NCBI GenBank assembly: GCA_944381625.1
Contig: CALWLW010000003.1
Span: 1-64,000 of the forward strand
From: an uncultured Lachnoclostridium sp.
GTDB lineage: Bacteria > Bacillota > Clostridia > Lachnospirales > Lachnospiraceae
Direction: 5' to 3'
Length of the DNA: 64,000 nucleotides
Positions 2,133 through 49,980 of this stretch are shown here, piece after piece. The position numbers and the translations under genes were made by a program. The notes beneath the pieces are model-generated. The model was not told where the DNA came from. It was given only the letters and a program-made list of their open reading frames with translations, and ran no database searches. Every line of letters starts with the position of its first letter. Position 1 is the stretch's first letter.

Positions 2133-3032
2133 ATGACGCTGTTATCGTATCAGGTATTTATGGCGGTGGCTGATCAGGGCAGCTTTCAGAAGGCGGCGCA
2201 GACGCTGCAGCTGACGCCCTCCGCGGTCAGCCATGCGGTGGCCGCCATGGAGGAGGAACTGGGATCGCCGCTGTTTGTGCGGAGCAAACGGGGCGTGAGT
2301 CTGACCAATTATGGAAAAGAGCTGTTCCCCTATATCAAAAATGTATTGAACAGCGATGAATATTTACAGCAGGCGGTGGCTCAGTTCAATGGACTCCAGA
2401 AGGGATCGGTGCGGCTGGGTACGTTCAACAGCGCCTGCGTGGAGTGGATGCCGGGGCTTCTAAAGGACTTTCAGCAGGAATATCCCAATGTGCGGGTGGA
2501 GATCTATCAGGGGAGCTACCATGACGTGAAACGCTGGCTGAAGGACGGGATCGTGGACCTGGGCTTTTTGTCTTCTCTTAGCGTGGGTGACCTGAACTAC
2601 GAACCGGTCTATGAGGACCGGATCGTCTGCGTGACGCCGAAAGGATTCCAGCCCCGCCACCCCGGTTATATCACGGTGGAAGAACTGAAGGAGCAGAAAT
2701 TTGTGACCCAGATGGAAGGCTGTGATGCGGATGTGAACAGTTTTATGAAGAAATATGGACTTCCGGCGAGGGGCAACAGCTACATTGTGGACGATATGTC
2801 CGCCATTGCCCTGGTGATGGGAGGCTACGGACTCTGTCTGGTGCCGGAGCTGGTGATTCGGAACCTCTCTTTCCCGGTGGATGTTTACCCGCTGGACGTG
2901 GATGAGAAACGGACGATCGTACTGGCCAGCCTCAACGCCGCGGCCCAGGCGCCCGCTGTGCGGCGGATGCACGACTATATCGTGGCGCGCCTGCGGGACG
3001 GCGGCTCTGAGGCGGACAAGAAGAAGCCATAA
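2133..3032 (+). CDS. LysR-family transcriptional regulator
   Basis: A 299-residue protein of standard LysR length. The N-terminal winged helix-turn-helix (about residues 1-60) has the family pattern GSFQKAAQTLQLTPSAVSHA, followed by EEELGSPLFVR. The rest is a periplasmic-binding-protein-like effector domain. The ATG at 2133 has AGGAG six bases upstream; the frame also opens at 2094, but that would add residues absent from the family. It is monocistronic: a terminator precedes it and a structured repeat starts on its stop codon. The target is not evident, since no divergent gene adjoins it; the effector cannot be read from the sequence. Confidence 0.9.
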   Translation: MTLLSYQVFMAVADQGSFQKAAQTLQLTPSAVSHAVAAMEEELGSPLFVRSKRGVSLTNYGKELFPYIKNVLNSDEYLQQAVAQFNGLQKGSVRLGTFNSACVEWMPGLLKDFQQEYPNVRVEIYQGSYHDVKRWLKDGIVDLGFLSSLSVGDLNYEPVYEDRIVCVTPKGFQPRHPGYITVEELKEQKFVTQMEGCDADVNSFMKKYGLPARGNSYIVDDMSAIALVMGGYGLCLVPELVIRNLSFPVDVYPLDVDEKRTIVLASLNAAAQAPAVRRMHDYIVARLRDGGSEADKKKP

Positions 3033-3201
3033 CTATTCAGCCATATATCTCGGATCCCCGCAGCTGACGCTGCTCTGCCGCCGCTTGCGCGGCTGAATCC
3101 TCGATTAGGGCTAAGCGCCCTATGTCTGAAGATTGCAAAACCTCTCTGCAAGCCAGCTTGCGCCGGGTTTTGCGATCTTCAGACGCATGGCTGGATAGTT
3201 A
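3030..3201. repeat. Cloverleaf-like structured repeat, copy 1
   Basis: The outer arms TAACTATTCAGCCAT (3030-3044) and ATGGCTGGATAGTTA (3187-3201) pair over 15 bp with one wobble. Inside are a GCCGC/GCGGC hairpin, an AGGGC/GCCCT hairpin, and a long hairpin of 19 bp (3124-3142 with 3166-3184, one wobble). The first arm includes the lysR stop codon. A second copy lies at 20670-20831: its core is nearly identical, its long arm differs, yet it still pairs. It resembles a MITE/REP-like element or a structured RNA. No coding content was seen. Confidence 0.85.
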
Positions 3202-3224
3202 CAGAAAGTTCGTTCAACGGACCA

Positions 3225-3254
3225 TTGACACCTGAGACGGAATCCGGGTATTCT
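3225..3254 (+). promoter_or_regulatory. Sigma-A promoter of the HAD phosphatase gene
   Basis: TTGACA (3225-3230) and TATTCT (3249-3254) are 18 bp apart, starting 24 bp after the structured repeat and ending 20 bp before the ATG. Confidence 0.5.
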
Positions 3255-3274
3255 GTTGTCAGGAGGAAAATACG

Positions 3275-3928
3275 ATGTACCAGTATATTTTATTTGATGT
3301 GGACGGGACGCTCTCCGATTCCAGGGAAGGGATCACCAGGAGCGTACAGTATGCCCTTTCCAGACTGGGAGCCCCGGAGGAGGACCAGAAGAGGCTGGAG
3401 CTTTACGTGGGGCCGCCTCTGATCACTTCGTTTACGGAGCTTGCGGGGCTGTCTCTGGAGGATGCCAGGCAGGGCGTGGTCTATTACCGGGAGTATTTCA
3501 GTAAATACGGAATTCACCAGAACCGCATGTTCGACGGCGTTCCCCGGATGCTGGAGCGGCTGAAAAAAGAGGGACGGGTTCTGGCCACGGCCACCTGCAA
3601 GGCGGAGCCCTACCTTATGGAAACGTTGAAGATGTTTGGCCTTACGGACTATTTTGATTATATCTGCGGAGGCTCCATGGACGAATCCTGCCGGACCAAG
3701 GAACAGGTGATCGCCAAGGCGCTGGGTCAGATGAACCTGCCGGAAGGGGAGAAGCAGAAGGTGCTGATGGTGGGCGACCGGAAGCATGATGTGGAAGGCG
3801 CACTGGCCCACGGGATTCCCTGCCTGGGCCTGTCCATGGGCTTCGCGCCCGAAGGGGAGCTGGAAGAGGCGGGAGCCGTGGCAGTGGTTGATACCCTGGA
3901 CGAAGTGGTGGAATATATTTTAAGATAG
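3275..3928 (+). CDS. HAD-superfamily hydrolase, phosphoglycolate-phosphatase-like
   Basis: A 217-residue cytosolic phosphatase-type protein. HAD motif I is FDVDGT (D8 nucleophile, D10 acid/base), a small cap domain follows, motif III lysine lies in the TKEQVI region, and motif IV is VGDRKHD. Family members remove phosphate from phosphoglycolate, pyrophosphate or small sugar phosphates; the substrate cannot be read here. AGGAGG precedes the ATG by seven bases. It seems to be transcribed alone: its own promoter is upstream and a strong terminator lies at 3987-4019. Confidence 0.85.
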   Translation: MYQYILFDVDGTLSDSREGITRSVQYALSRLGAPEEDQKRLELYVGPPLITSFTELAGLSLEDARQGVVYYREYFSKYGIHQNRMFDGVPRMLERLKKEGRVLATATCKAEPYLMETLKMFGLTDYFDYICGGSMDESCRTKEQVIAKALGQMNLPEGEKQKVLMVGDRKHDVEGALAHGIPCLGLSMGFAPEGELEEAGAVAVVDTLDEVVEYILR

Positions 3929-3986
3929 AACAGTTCACTCGTCAGCCAGGATCAGTCAGATATCGTGCTTGCACGAACAACGGAAG

Positions 3987-4019
3987 AAAGCGGAGGATGG
4001 TTGAAATCCTCCGCTTTTT
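3987..4019 (+). terminator. Strong terminator before prmA
   Basis: AAAGCGGAGGAT (3987-3998) pairs perfectly with ATCCTCCGCTTT (4006-4017) and a T-run follows. A small hairpin TCGTGC/GCACGA lies just before it (3963-3976). Confidence 0.85.
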
Positions 4020-18677: not shown

Positions 18678-20663
18678 ATGGCAAAGTATTTAGTGATCGT
18701 GGAGTCGCCTGCGAAGGTGAAAACTATAAAAAAATTTTTGGGAAGCAATTATGAGGTGCTGGCCTCCAACGGCCATGTGCGGGATATGCCCAAGAGCCAG
18801 CTGGGCATCGATGTGGAGCATGACTACGAACCCAAATATATTACGATCCGGGGAAAAGGAGAGATTCTGGCCAAACTGCGTAAGGAAGCGAAGAAGGCTG
18901 ATAAAGTGTATCTGGCGACCGACCCTGACCGGGAAGGAGAGGCGATCTCCTGGCACCTGTCCAAAGCGCTGAACCTTGACCCGAAGAAGATGTACCGGAT
19001 CACGTTCAACGAGATCACCAAGAGCGCGGTGAAAGAATCTATCAAACACGCCCGGGAGATTGATCAGGATCTGGTGGACGCCCAGCAGGCCAGAAGGATG
19101 CTGGACCGCATGGTGGGCTACCGGATCAGCCCTCTTCTGTGGGCGAAGGTGAAAAGGGGCTTAAGCGCCGGACGCGTGCAGTCCGTGGCCCTTCGGATTA
19201 TCGCGGACAGGGAGGAAGAGATCAACGCGTTCGTGCCGGAGGAGTACTGGAGTCTTGACGCCCAGTTTGCGGTGAAAGGGGAAAGGAAACCTCTGACAGC
19301 CAAATTTTACGGCACGGAGAAAGAAAAGATGGAGATCCGCTCCCGGGAGGAGATGGACCGTATTCTGGAGGCGGTGAAGGACGCCCGGTTCCAGGTGACA
19401 GATGTGAAGAACGGAGAGCGGACGAAGAAAGCGCCGCTGCCGTTTACCACCAGTACGCTCCAGCAGGAGGCGTCAAAAGTACTGAACTTTTCCACGTCCA
19501 AAACCATGCGTCTGGCTCAGCAGCTTTACGAAGGAATCGACGTGGAAGGCCAGGGAACGGTGGGTATCATCACGTACCTGCGTACCGATTCCACCCGCGT
19601 GTCGGAGGAAGCGGAGCAGATGGCCGTATCCTACATCGGGGAGACCTACGGGAAAGCCTATGTGAACCAGAGAAAGAACGACGGGAAGAAACAGGATAAG
19701 AAGATCCAGGACGCCCATGAGGCCATCCGCCCCACGGACATCCGCAGGCTGCCCGCCGCTATTAAAGAGTCCCTTTCCAGGGATCAGTTCCGGCTCTACC
19801 AGCTGATCTGGAAACGGTTCACGGCCAGCTGCATGGCGGACGCCAGGTACCATACCACCTCCGTGAAGATCGACGGGAACGGATACCGTTTTACTGTGTC
19901 CGCATCGTCCGTGGCTTTTGAGGGATTTATGTCCGTCTACACCCAGGAGGAGGACGAGAAGGGCGCAGAGAACCAGCTGGTGAAAGCCATCGGGAAGGAT
20001 TCGGAGCTGACTCTGAAAGAGCTGGAAGACAAACAGCATTTCACACAGCCGCCCGCGCATTTCACAGAGGCGGCGCTGGTGAAGACGCTGGAGGAACTGG
20101 GTATCGGACGTCCCAGCACGTACGCCCCCACCATCAGTACCATCATCGCCCGCCGTTATGTGGCGAAAGAAGGCAGAAATCTGTATCTGACGGAACTGGG
20201 CGAGGTGGTCAACAATATGATGAAGAAATCCTTCCCCGGCATCGTGGAAGCGGATTTTACCGCCAACATGGAGTCTCTGCTGGACATGGTGGAGGAAGGA
20301 AAAGTAGGCTGGAAGACGGTGGTGAGCAATTTCTATCCGGATCTGAACGAGGCGGTGAAGAAAGCCGAGGCAGAGCTGGAGAAGGTGAAGATCGAGGACG
20401 AGGTCACCGACGTGGTGTGCGAGCAGTGCGGCCGCAATATGGTGGTCAAGTACGGGCCCCACGGCAAGTTCCTGGCCTGCCCCGGTTTCCCGGACTGCCG
20501 GAACACCAAGCCATACCTGGAGAAGATCGGCGTGCCCTGTCCCAAATGTGGAAAAGATATCGTTCTGCGCCGTTCGTCCAAGGGAAGGAAATTCTACAGC
20601 TGCGAAGGCTATCCGGAATGCGATTTCATCTCCTGGAAGAAGCCGGAGGCGCAGCAGAAGTAA
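18678..20663 (+). CDS. topA: DNA topoisomerase I
   Basis: A 661-residue type IA topoisomerase that relaxes negative supercoils. The Toprim domain is at the start (VIVESPAKVKTIKKF, ATDPDREGEAISWHL), the catalytic tyrosine is Y300 in ITYLRTDSTRVS, and two C-terminal zinc ribbons follow (CEQCGRNM...CPGFPDC and CPKCGKDI...CEGYPEC). Length is normal. It follows dprA by 10 bp and is the last gene before the second structured repeat and the codY promoter, so the operon ends here. Confidence 0.96.
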   Translation: MAKYLVIVESPAKVKTIKKFLGSNYEVLASNGHVRDMPKSQLGIDVEHDYEPKYITIRGKGEILAKLRKEAKKADKVYLATDPDREGEAISWHLSKALNLDPKKMYRITFNEITKSAVKESIKHAREIDQDLVDAQQARRMLDRMVGYRISPLLWAKVKRGLSAGRVQSVALRIIADREEEINAFVPEEYWSLDAQFAVKGERKPLTAKFYGTEKEKMEIRSREEMDRILEAVKDARFQVTDVKNGERTKKAPLPFTTSTLQQEASKVLNFSTSKTMRLAQQLYEGIDVEGQGTVGIITYLRTDSTRVSEEAEQMAVSYIGETYGKAYVNQRKNDGKKQDKKIQDAHEAIRPTDIRRLPAAIKESLSRDQFRLYQLIWKRFTASCMADARYHTTSVKIDGNGYRFTVSASSVAFEGFMSVYTQEEDEKGAENQLVKAIGKDSELTLKELEDKQHFTQPPAHFTEAALVKTLEELGIGRPSTYAPTISTIIARRYVAKEGRNLYLTELGEVVNNMMKKSFPGIVEADFTANMESLLDMVEEGKVGWKTVVSNFYPDLNEAVKKAEAELEKVKIEDEVTDVVCEQCGRNMVVKYGPHGKFLACPGFPDCRNTKPYLEKIGVPCPKCGKDIVLRRSSKGRKFYSCEGYPECDFISWKKPEAQQK

Positions 20664-20669
20664 CGATGA

Positions 20670-20831
20670 TCCAGCCATGCATCTCGGATTCCCGCGGCTT
20701 TGCGCCGCTCTCCCGCCGCTTGCGCGGCTGAATCCTCGATTGGGGCTAAGCGCCCTATGCCTGCTGACAGCAAAATTCCTCTGCAAGCGAGCTTGCGCCG
20801 TATTTTTGCTGTCAGCAGGCGCATGGCTGGA
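20670..20831. repeat. Cloverleaf-like structured repeat, copy 2
   Basis: The outer arms TCCAGCCATGC (20670-20680) and GCATGGCTGGA (20821-20831) pair perfectly. Inside are a GCCGC/GCGGC hairpin, GGGGC/GCCCT, and a perfect 17-bp long hairpin (20759-20775 with 20804-20820). The core GCGGCTGAATCCTCGATT and GGCTAAGCGCCCTATG matches copy 1 at 3030-3201. Five positions in the long arm differ from copy 1 and each is matched by a change in the partner arm. It begins 7 bp after the topA stop. Confidence 0.85.
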
Positions 20832-20841
20832 CAGGTAACAA

Positions 20842-49883: not shown

Positions 49884-49980
49884 TGCAAAATAGGTTTTCA
49901 TGCGTCAAGTGTTCGGTGGATGGGGAGTTGCCGCCGAAACGAAAAGCCTGTCTTACGATATGGAGACCGCACCCGTTGCA
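49884..49980 (+). ncRNA. THF riboswitch upstream of folE
   Basis: The fold matches the known tetrahydrofolate riboswitch. P1 is TGCAA (49884-49888) with TTGCA (49976-49980); P2 is GGTTTTC with GGAGACC; the conserved strand GCGTCAAGTG follows; P3 is TTCGGTGG (49912-49919) with CCGCCGAA (49931-49938), closing the loop ATGGGGAGTTG, close to the consensus AUGGGA-GUC; GCACCCG stands before P1, like GCAUCCG in the family. Downstream, CAATAT (49982-49987) can pair with ATATTG (50001-50006), while an overlapping TTGTGAA (50004-50010) can pair with TTCACAA (50034-50040), a possible switch just ahead of the ribosome site at 50047. Confidence 0.85.

Follow-up and report, generated by a model that had tools for sequence, protein, structure and literature searches.

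A short structured transposable element of Lachnospiraceae with IS66-type ends and a probable distant kinship to Clostridiales-1 RNA

The window, as we call the whole stretch of DNA analysed (64,000 nucleotides of contig CALWLW010000003.1, from an uncultured Lachnoclostridium sp.), contains two copies of a structured repeat, to which no strand is assigned. Copy 1 (3029..3202; 174 bp, ends ATAAC...GTTAC) has its first base on the stop codon of a gene for a LysR-type regulator and is followed by a HAD-family gene, and copy 2 (20663..20838; 176 bp, ends ACGAT...GGTAA) lies at the end of topA, upstream of codY. Copy 1 is bounded by a left terminal inverted repeat, TAACTATTCAGCCATAT (3030..3046, plus strand), and a right one, GCATGGCTGGATAGTTAC (3185..3202, minus strand), both identified from the sequence; the general form of these repeats is (G)TAACTATTCAGCCATGC...GCATGGCTGAATAGTTA(C). 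Between them are found an arm, P1 (3047..3105), in which ATC/GAT and GGATCC/GAATCC pairings flank a TC/TC internal loop (GA/GA on the minus strand) and which encloses two hairpins (3060-3073 and 3080-3093); a short hairpin, P4 (3106..3122), with the sequence TAGGGC-TAAGC-GCCCTA; and a long hairpin, P5 (3124..3184), with an apical GCAAG/CTTGC hairpin. A search of the whole window against Rfam at gathering score returned only a THF riboswitch (49884-49980, 84.6 bits), and Clostridiales-1 RNA (RF01699) was found at that threshold neither in the window nor in five element-bearing loci.

A preliminary description of this DNA had reported the two copies, with core strings that are indeed present in both, and four kinds of stem, all of which were recovered by folding: the z scores were -9.4 and -8.0 for the plus and minus strands of copy 1 and -8.2 for the plus strand of copy 2, and none of 200 shuffles folded as well in any of the three strand tests. 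Its outer arms are real, and are identified here as the terminal inverted repeats; the element extends one base (copy 1) or seven bases (copy 2) further on each side than had been described, and the list of stems omitted a further helix, GGATTC/GAATCC with ATC/GAT around the TC/TC loop, that encloses two hairpins. At the five positions at which the long hairpins were said to differ with pairing retained, both partners have changed in every case, four being exchanges of one Watson-Crick pair for another and the fifth a T.G wobble in copy 1 that is A-T in copy 2.

The preliminary description had also allowed that only these two copies might exist, through a recent duplication; instead, BLAST with copy 1 found 31 matches in its own genome, in both orientations, 15 of which cover 134 or more of the query's 172 bases. 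A 15-mer from the end motif, with up to two mismatches, matched this genome 57 times, whereas its reversed form, used as a control, gave no match. Some copies are short forms that lack the long hairpin (L016, L018 and L020), and there are many truncated or decayed remains. Copies in tandem were seen at L006/L017, L110, L077 and L121, the second of these comprising three copies with an identical short spacer. The 21 listed sites with solo inverted repeats, considered as a possible hidden autonomous element, look truncated or decayed.

Across 41 genomes, BLAST matches were confined to the own genome and one other of the same genus (G012), with 15 of the 16 other genomes of the genus lacking the element by this measure. 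The core pattern, with one mismatch allowed, occurred at 23 sites in the own genome; G012 had 43 such sites and G003 a single one, and the remaining 14 of the 16 others lacked it. An exact-core scan of species genomes added six carriers, in which sites with two mismatches numbered 41 in an uncultured Eubacteriales bin (CASFBR01), eight in Blautia sp. An249, 23 in Catenibacillus scindens, one in Candidatus Blautia faecipullorum, three in Candidatus Anaerobutyricum stercoripullorum and two in a Lachnospiraceae bin. Exact-core hits in Proteobacteria, Bacteroidetes, Paenibacillus and others were dismissed as chance, the remainder of the element being missing. No match was found by BLASTN to phages or plasmids, nor was the core pattern found in viral contigs. 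Four motif strings of the element did not occur in the literature searched, in which, as judged by titles and the openings of abstracts, no paper describes these elements.

The ends of the element follow the pattern GTAAC(T/A)(A/G)TTCAGCC...GTTAC. When 179 end pairs were taken whole, chance internal pairs included, 27 had target duplications matching at seven or eight of eight bases, compared with 0.31% of mismatched pairs, and the clearest excess was in the eight bases immediately outside the ends; among pairs with perfect GTAAC/GTTAC ends the proportion was 16 of 26. The full-copy set was picked by its ends, using a regular expression and end pairs, and hence the end repeats seem more conserved in it than they would in an unselected set. 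Forms with internal deletions, 49 to 79 bp long, retain duplications as well. One 76-bp deletion form, with a repeated GGCTGAA at its junction, recurs with duplications of seven or eight bases at five loci (L099, L195, L205, L234 and L237), and represents a deletion that arose in place several times or else a mini-form that is itself mobile.

It is from the target-site duplications of these other copies that transposition of the element is deduced. The window copies are two old copies of a non-autonomous transposable element (MITE) of around 174 bp: it is short, dispersed and multicopy, is too small to encode a transposase, and shares its ends with candidate autonomous elements, both ends in one case (L128) and the left end in three (L168, L174 and L175). 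The terminal inverted repeats are accompanied by a target-site duplication at other copies; the two window copies have kept none, each matching at only four of eight flanking bases. Palindromic elements of the IS200/IS605 type (PATE, REP) have neither inverted ends nor target duplications, and are thus excluded by the inverted ends and 8-bp duplications seen here; integron attC, IS605-type and retron readings were dropped on the same grounds, paired inverted ends and duplications being present.

A transposase gene between such ends was found in Candidatus Blautia faecipullorum, which also has a window-type element (L100). The L128 locus contains a single open reading frame of 499 residues, matching DDE_Tnp_IS66 (E 6.3e-25), DUF6444 (E 7.1e-9) and the NCBIfam IS66 model (154 bits, under the cut-off of 180), and sits between GTAACAGTTCAGCA and GGCTGAATAGTTAC; no clear target duplication was evident at this locus. 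A search of 299 genomes of the family with this protein gave 15 matches in 13 genomes. Three of these (L168, L174 and L175), 61-74% identical to L128 over the aligned N-terminal parts, have GTAAC(T/A)(A/G)TTCAGCC upstream of the transposase gene; they are truncated relatives, cut by the end of a contig or rearranged. The motif was missing, at up to two mismatches, from the other 11 of the 15 loci, L167 having it merely through sharing a contig with L175. Canonical IS66 elements, our first guess as the carriers of these ends, proved wrong for the 30 loci (L132-L161) that gave the best PF03050 matches in 120 family genomes, none of which had the motif within two mismatches. The ends are carried by a divergent, single-ORF IS66-type clade, and just four transposases having them were identified. 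PF03050, or DDE_Tnp_IS66, was not found in the own genome (94.7% complete) or in G012 (about 80% complete), nor in three of the six other carrier genomes (G043, G045 and G046); An249, Catenibacillus and Blautia faecipullorum do have it, and a transposase remnant in Catenibacillus (L127) lies near GTAACAATTCAGCC. One of the genomes from these transposase searches, G067, has a structural homologue (L178), 174 bp long with a perfect 8-bp duplication and with different stem sequences, approximately 1.5 kb from its piece of a transposase gene.

By eye, small hairpins at the ends of two transposase elements (L128 2441-2464 and L174 1007-1036) contain the end motif, and L177 (about 2405-4007) is a rearranged remnant in which an interrupted IS66-type gene precedes a Cas2-like reading frame.

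These ends resemble those of the ISBst12 group of the IS66 family. For ISDge4 of this group, the ends are given as GTGACTACTCAGCA and GTAACTGCTCAGCA, with a repeat of 8 bp (PMC12898284); ISDge4 and ISBst12 share with our element the GTAAC... ends, a TTCAGC/CTCAGC core and 8-bp duplications; in addition, the single-ORF DDE_Tnp_IS66 transposase of Blautia lies between similar ends. However, the window element is 174 bp long without a transposase gene, and the conserved fold that makes up its interior bears no resemblance that we could see to the tnpC reading frame. As it lacks a single-ORF TnpC gene, it would be a derivative moved in trans rather than an IS. The ends, the duplications and a transposase gene with such ends can all be read directly in the genomes, and from them we infer that a single-ORF IS66-type transposase, supplied in trans, would have recognised the GTAAC...TTCAGCC ends and inserted copies of the element with an 8-bp target duplication. 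We consider this transposon part of the explanation very likely to be correct.

The interior of the element is maintained as a fold. In an alignment of 41 elements, 90.8% of 2620 pair cells hold standard pairs, compared with 33.6-38.7% when the partners are slid; changes on both sides affect 38 of 64 pairs overall and all 17 pairs of the long hairpin, and none of 500 shuffles reached any of the five measures. In a set of 79 distinct elements, drawn from nine genomes after removal of L113 6640 as a spurious row, all 17 long-hairpin pairs take at least two Watson-Crick types and ten take all four, such that the sequence of the P5 stem varies between copies and species and stays largely complementary. 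The stem adjoining the TC/TC loop can be GGATTC/GAATCC, GAAAGC/GCTTTC, GCGTTT/AAACGC or GGAAA/GTTTCC, mostly being fixed per genome, whilst the loop itself is retained on both sides in 71 of the 79; the neighbouring ATC/GAT is present in 59, with AGC/GCT in three and ACC/GGT in two. A tandem GA/GA loop was predicted in all nine sequences folded singly, which included window-type, canonical and intermediate forms. The Blautia copy L113, which has intact duplications, carries the new state in one arm and the old in the other, giving a T.T mismatch; because such an intermediate is explained by stepwise compensation or by recombination between copies, no mechanism of arm-to-arm copying is needed.

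That stems vary while loops stay is what one would expect if selection acted on a folded strand in source copies, and is at odds with passive correction of arms. Active source copies may thus have kept the fold by compensatory change, a model that we infer from the covariation. A fold kept in this way implies that a single-stranded form matters to the element. The two proposals of the preliminary description, selection on structure and a spreading mechanism, are both upheld, the former by covariation in 41 and in 79 sequences and the latter by the many copies and the target-site duplications of others than the window pair; many copies with covarying stems, which it had held would support its reading, are what the 31 matches and these alignments reveal. 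ERIC, BOX, bcr1 and Correia/NEMIS elements are likewise short, intergenic, dispersed and foldable, with inverted ends; they are not known for cross-species covariation of whole stems together with conserved internal-loop motifs.

The preliminary description had recognised no named RNA or element here, and had held that a match to a known Rfam family or IS end would refute it; this part is not supported, in view of the IS-type ends (IS66 family, ISBst12 group) and of full-length matches, below threshold, to RF01699. At a relaxed threshold only, a search of 231 bases matched the minus strand of copy 1 (3039..3192) to this model from end to end (positions 1-166 of 166; 30.1 bits, E 4.4e-5). When nine loci, 16 kb in all, were searched together, the only matches at E <=0.01 were L222 (41.1 bits) and copy 2 (30.5 bits, E 0.0024); copy 1, L178, L199 and four others gave no match. 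The scores of the two window copies, and that of the best window-type copy (43.7 bits), are all below the gathering threshold of 48 bits. Fifteen G012 loci produced 11 matches in seven loci, the best being the copy with 43.7 bits (E 4e-7 in a 9.7-kb search), although a few of these 11 are probably members of another repeat family nearby; only L255 (33.8 bits) matched among 14 loci of G042 and G043. The own genome has eight matches at E <=0.01, neither window copy being among them: two, at the end of contig C27, exceed the gathering score (85.2 and 57.4 bits), four belong to a third repeat family (L294-L297) and two are window-type (L298 and L299); the full-length matches that speak for a kinship go down to E 6.0e-4 in this genome-wide search. 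All eight other carrier genomes searched contain RF01699 matches, which pass the cut-off in seven; none does so in G043, a genome rich in window-type copies.

The third repeat family (L294-L297, on contigs C16, C1, C30 and C9) comprises structured repeats of around 160 bp with GTTACAG...CTGTAAC ends, which are themselves sub-threshold relatives of RF01699. Duplications of seven or eight bases flank three of its four copies. In the predicted fold, L295 combines the window-type topology with the canonical UGAG/CGAA motif; L296 also has this motif, but its predicted sub-hairpins differ.

In common with Clostridiales-1 RNA, the window element appears to have, on one strand, a closing stem, a long first hairpin with a similar tip and an arm with a predicted tandem GA/GA loop, although the aligner, which matches the model over its full length, does not put this motif in arm B of the family. 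It differs in scoring below the gathering threshold, in having P4 as an additional short hairpin and a pair of sub-hairpins within the GA/GA arm, and in its ends and duplications, which are of 8 bp in the window type and 5 bp in the canonical elements. On these sequence comparisons we think it likely that the window element is related to RF01699 and belongs to the same broad group, probably as a distant relative rather than a member. The alternative is that the likeness reflects convergence of generic hairpins in two unrelated groups of MITEs: the long hairpin contributes most of the score, arms B and C of the model align poorly, and many window-type copies have no match at E <=0.01, with G043 contributing none above the cut-off. 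The matches are nonetheless full-length, with E values reaching those quoted above for G012 and genome-wide for the own genome, and L295 and L296 unite 8-bp-type ends with the canonical motif, the former in a window-type topology; convergence is accordingly judged rather unlikely, if less so than before the window-type copies that miss the model were counted. The class of element is already known, and it is the link to Clostridiales-1 RNA that appears to be new.

The canonical elements themselves look to be mobile, judging by their flanks. A 2010 source describes Clostridiales-1 as a probable RNA, probably not cis-regulatory, from Clostridiales and the human gut (PMC2864571). When up to 13 candidates were scored per genome, RF01699 matched in at least 112 of 200 genomes of the family, at least 87 of them above the gathering score, and in none of 14 controls. 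A search with end motifs composed after inspection of the flanks of canonical loci identified TGATnCCAGGGTCAAAAG...CTTTTGACCCCAACATCA ends around 24 elements in 23 of 30 canonical loci, and 14 of the 24 have identical 5-bp flanks, against an expectation of 0.61. Canonical loci L262-L290 form part of larger elements, which have inverted ends together with an additional hairpin at the end, and the 5-bp duplications are preceded by A and followed by T in 14 cases. No paper was found, from titles and the openings of abstracts, that calls Clostridiales-1 a mobile element.

We therefore propose, tentatively, that a Clostridiales-1-type fold is a portable module in MITEs of at least two transposon kinds, one with 8-bp IS66/ISBst12 ends and the other with TGATG...GGGTCAAAAG ends and 5-bp duplications, across at least 112 of the 200 sampled genera of the family (at least 87 above the Rfam cut-off), and that it would act as RNA or folded DNA in the life cycle of the element. 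The failure of window-type copies to match RF01699 slightly lowered our confidence in this proposal.

As to which of these forms is functional, we place minus-strand RNA ahead of folded DNA, with confidence in the RNA that is evenly balanced. The strand of the Rfam match, the GA/GA motif and an excess of A.C in P4 and P5 point weakly to it. Counted on the plus strand over the 79 elements, G.T and A.C cells number 40 and 90 in P4 and P5, which leans towards minus-strand RNA; the opposite leaning is seen in the end repeats (60 and 31) and in the apical hairpin (36 and 6), where some G012 sequences may be misaligned, and overall the counts are 153 and 139, or 80 and 84 as unique states. Rough ORF calls around 44 copies placed both neighbours along the plus strand in 19 cases, against it in eight and otherwise in 17, with 13 copies overlapping some called ORF; as neighbours mostly run with the plus strand, read-through would yield that strand and not the minus. 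The rival reading, in which selection acts on a folded DNA strand or a cruciform that serves the transposition machinery or the replication fork and transcription is irrelevant, agrees with the equally good folding of both strands, with the lack of a general excess of G.T over A.C, and with the coincidence of the ends of the fold with those of the transposon. However, canonical RF01699 elements share the GA/GA arm and general plan despite their other ends and 5-bp duplications, which implies that the fold is not bound to one transposase, and only one of the two strands gains favourable tandem G.A pairs; folded DNA as the selected form thus seems doubtful.

A host-kept, cis-acting regulatory role at adjoining genes, as a leader, insulator or 3' stabiliser, is considered improbable. 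Copies often occupy gaps beside promoter-like boxes, and over 76 copies the promoter score of right flanks exceeds that of left flanks (Wilcoxon p 5e-4), the right being higher in 16 of 21 copies in G043, 16 of 23 in G012 and eight of 12 in G000, the own genome. Yet there is no such bias in G041 (two of five) or G042 (six of 12), the element is missing from most other genomes of the genus by either BLAST or core pattern, many copies are decayed and truncated, and insertion preference plus tolerance would explain the positions; the bias itself may reflect target preference, tolerance or function. Promoter-like boxes around 10-30 bp past the right end, pointing away from it, were noted at L062, L077 and L045, and at 3225-3254 in the window. 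Least probable of all is that template switching, copying one arm onto the other, keeps the arms complementary without selection, for although the long-hairpin sequence is nearly free, arm copying would not conserve the TC/TC loop beside stems that have fully turned over, nor does it accord with the mismatch intermediate of L113.

Since 2010, Clostridiales-1 has figured as a probable RNA whose role is unexplained; if its copies are transposable elements, this would account for their copy number, for their scatter and for the absence of gene association, and the testable question would become why a MITE needs to conserve a fold that contains tandem GA. The exchange of whole stems between species around fixed loops amounts to a large natural experiment in compensatory evolution, and it carries the warning that RNA discovery by covariation may catch mobile DNA. 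Should the fold prove to be a portable module, an orphan 'noncoding RNA' of this family would be a working part of a structured mobile element.
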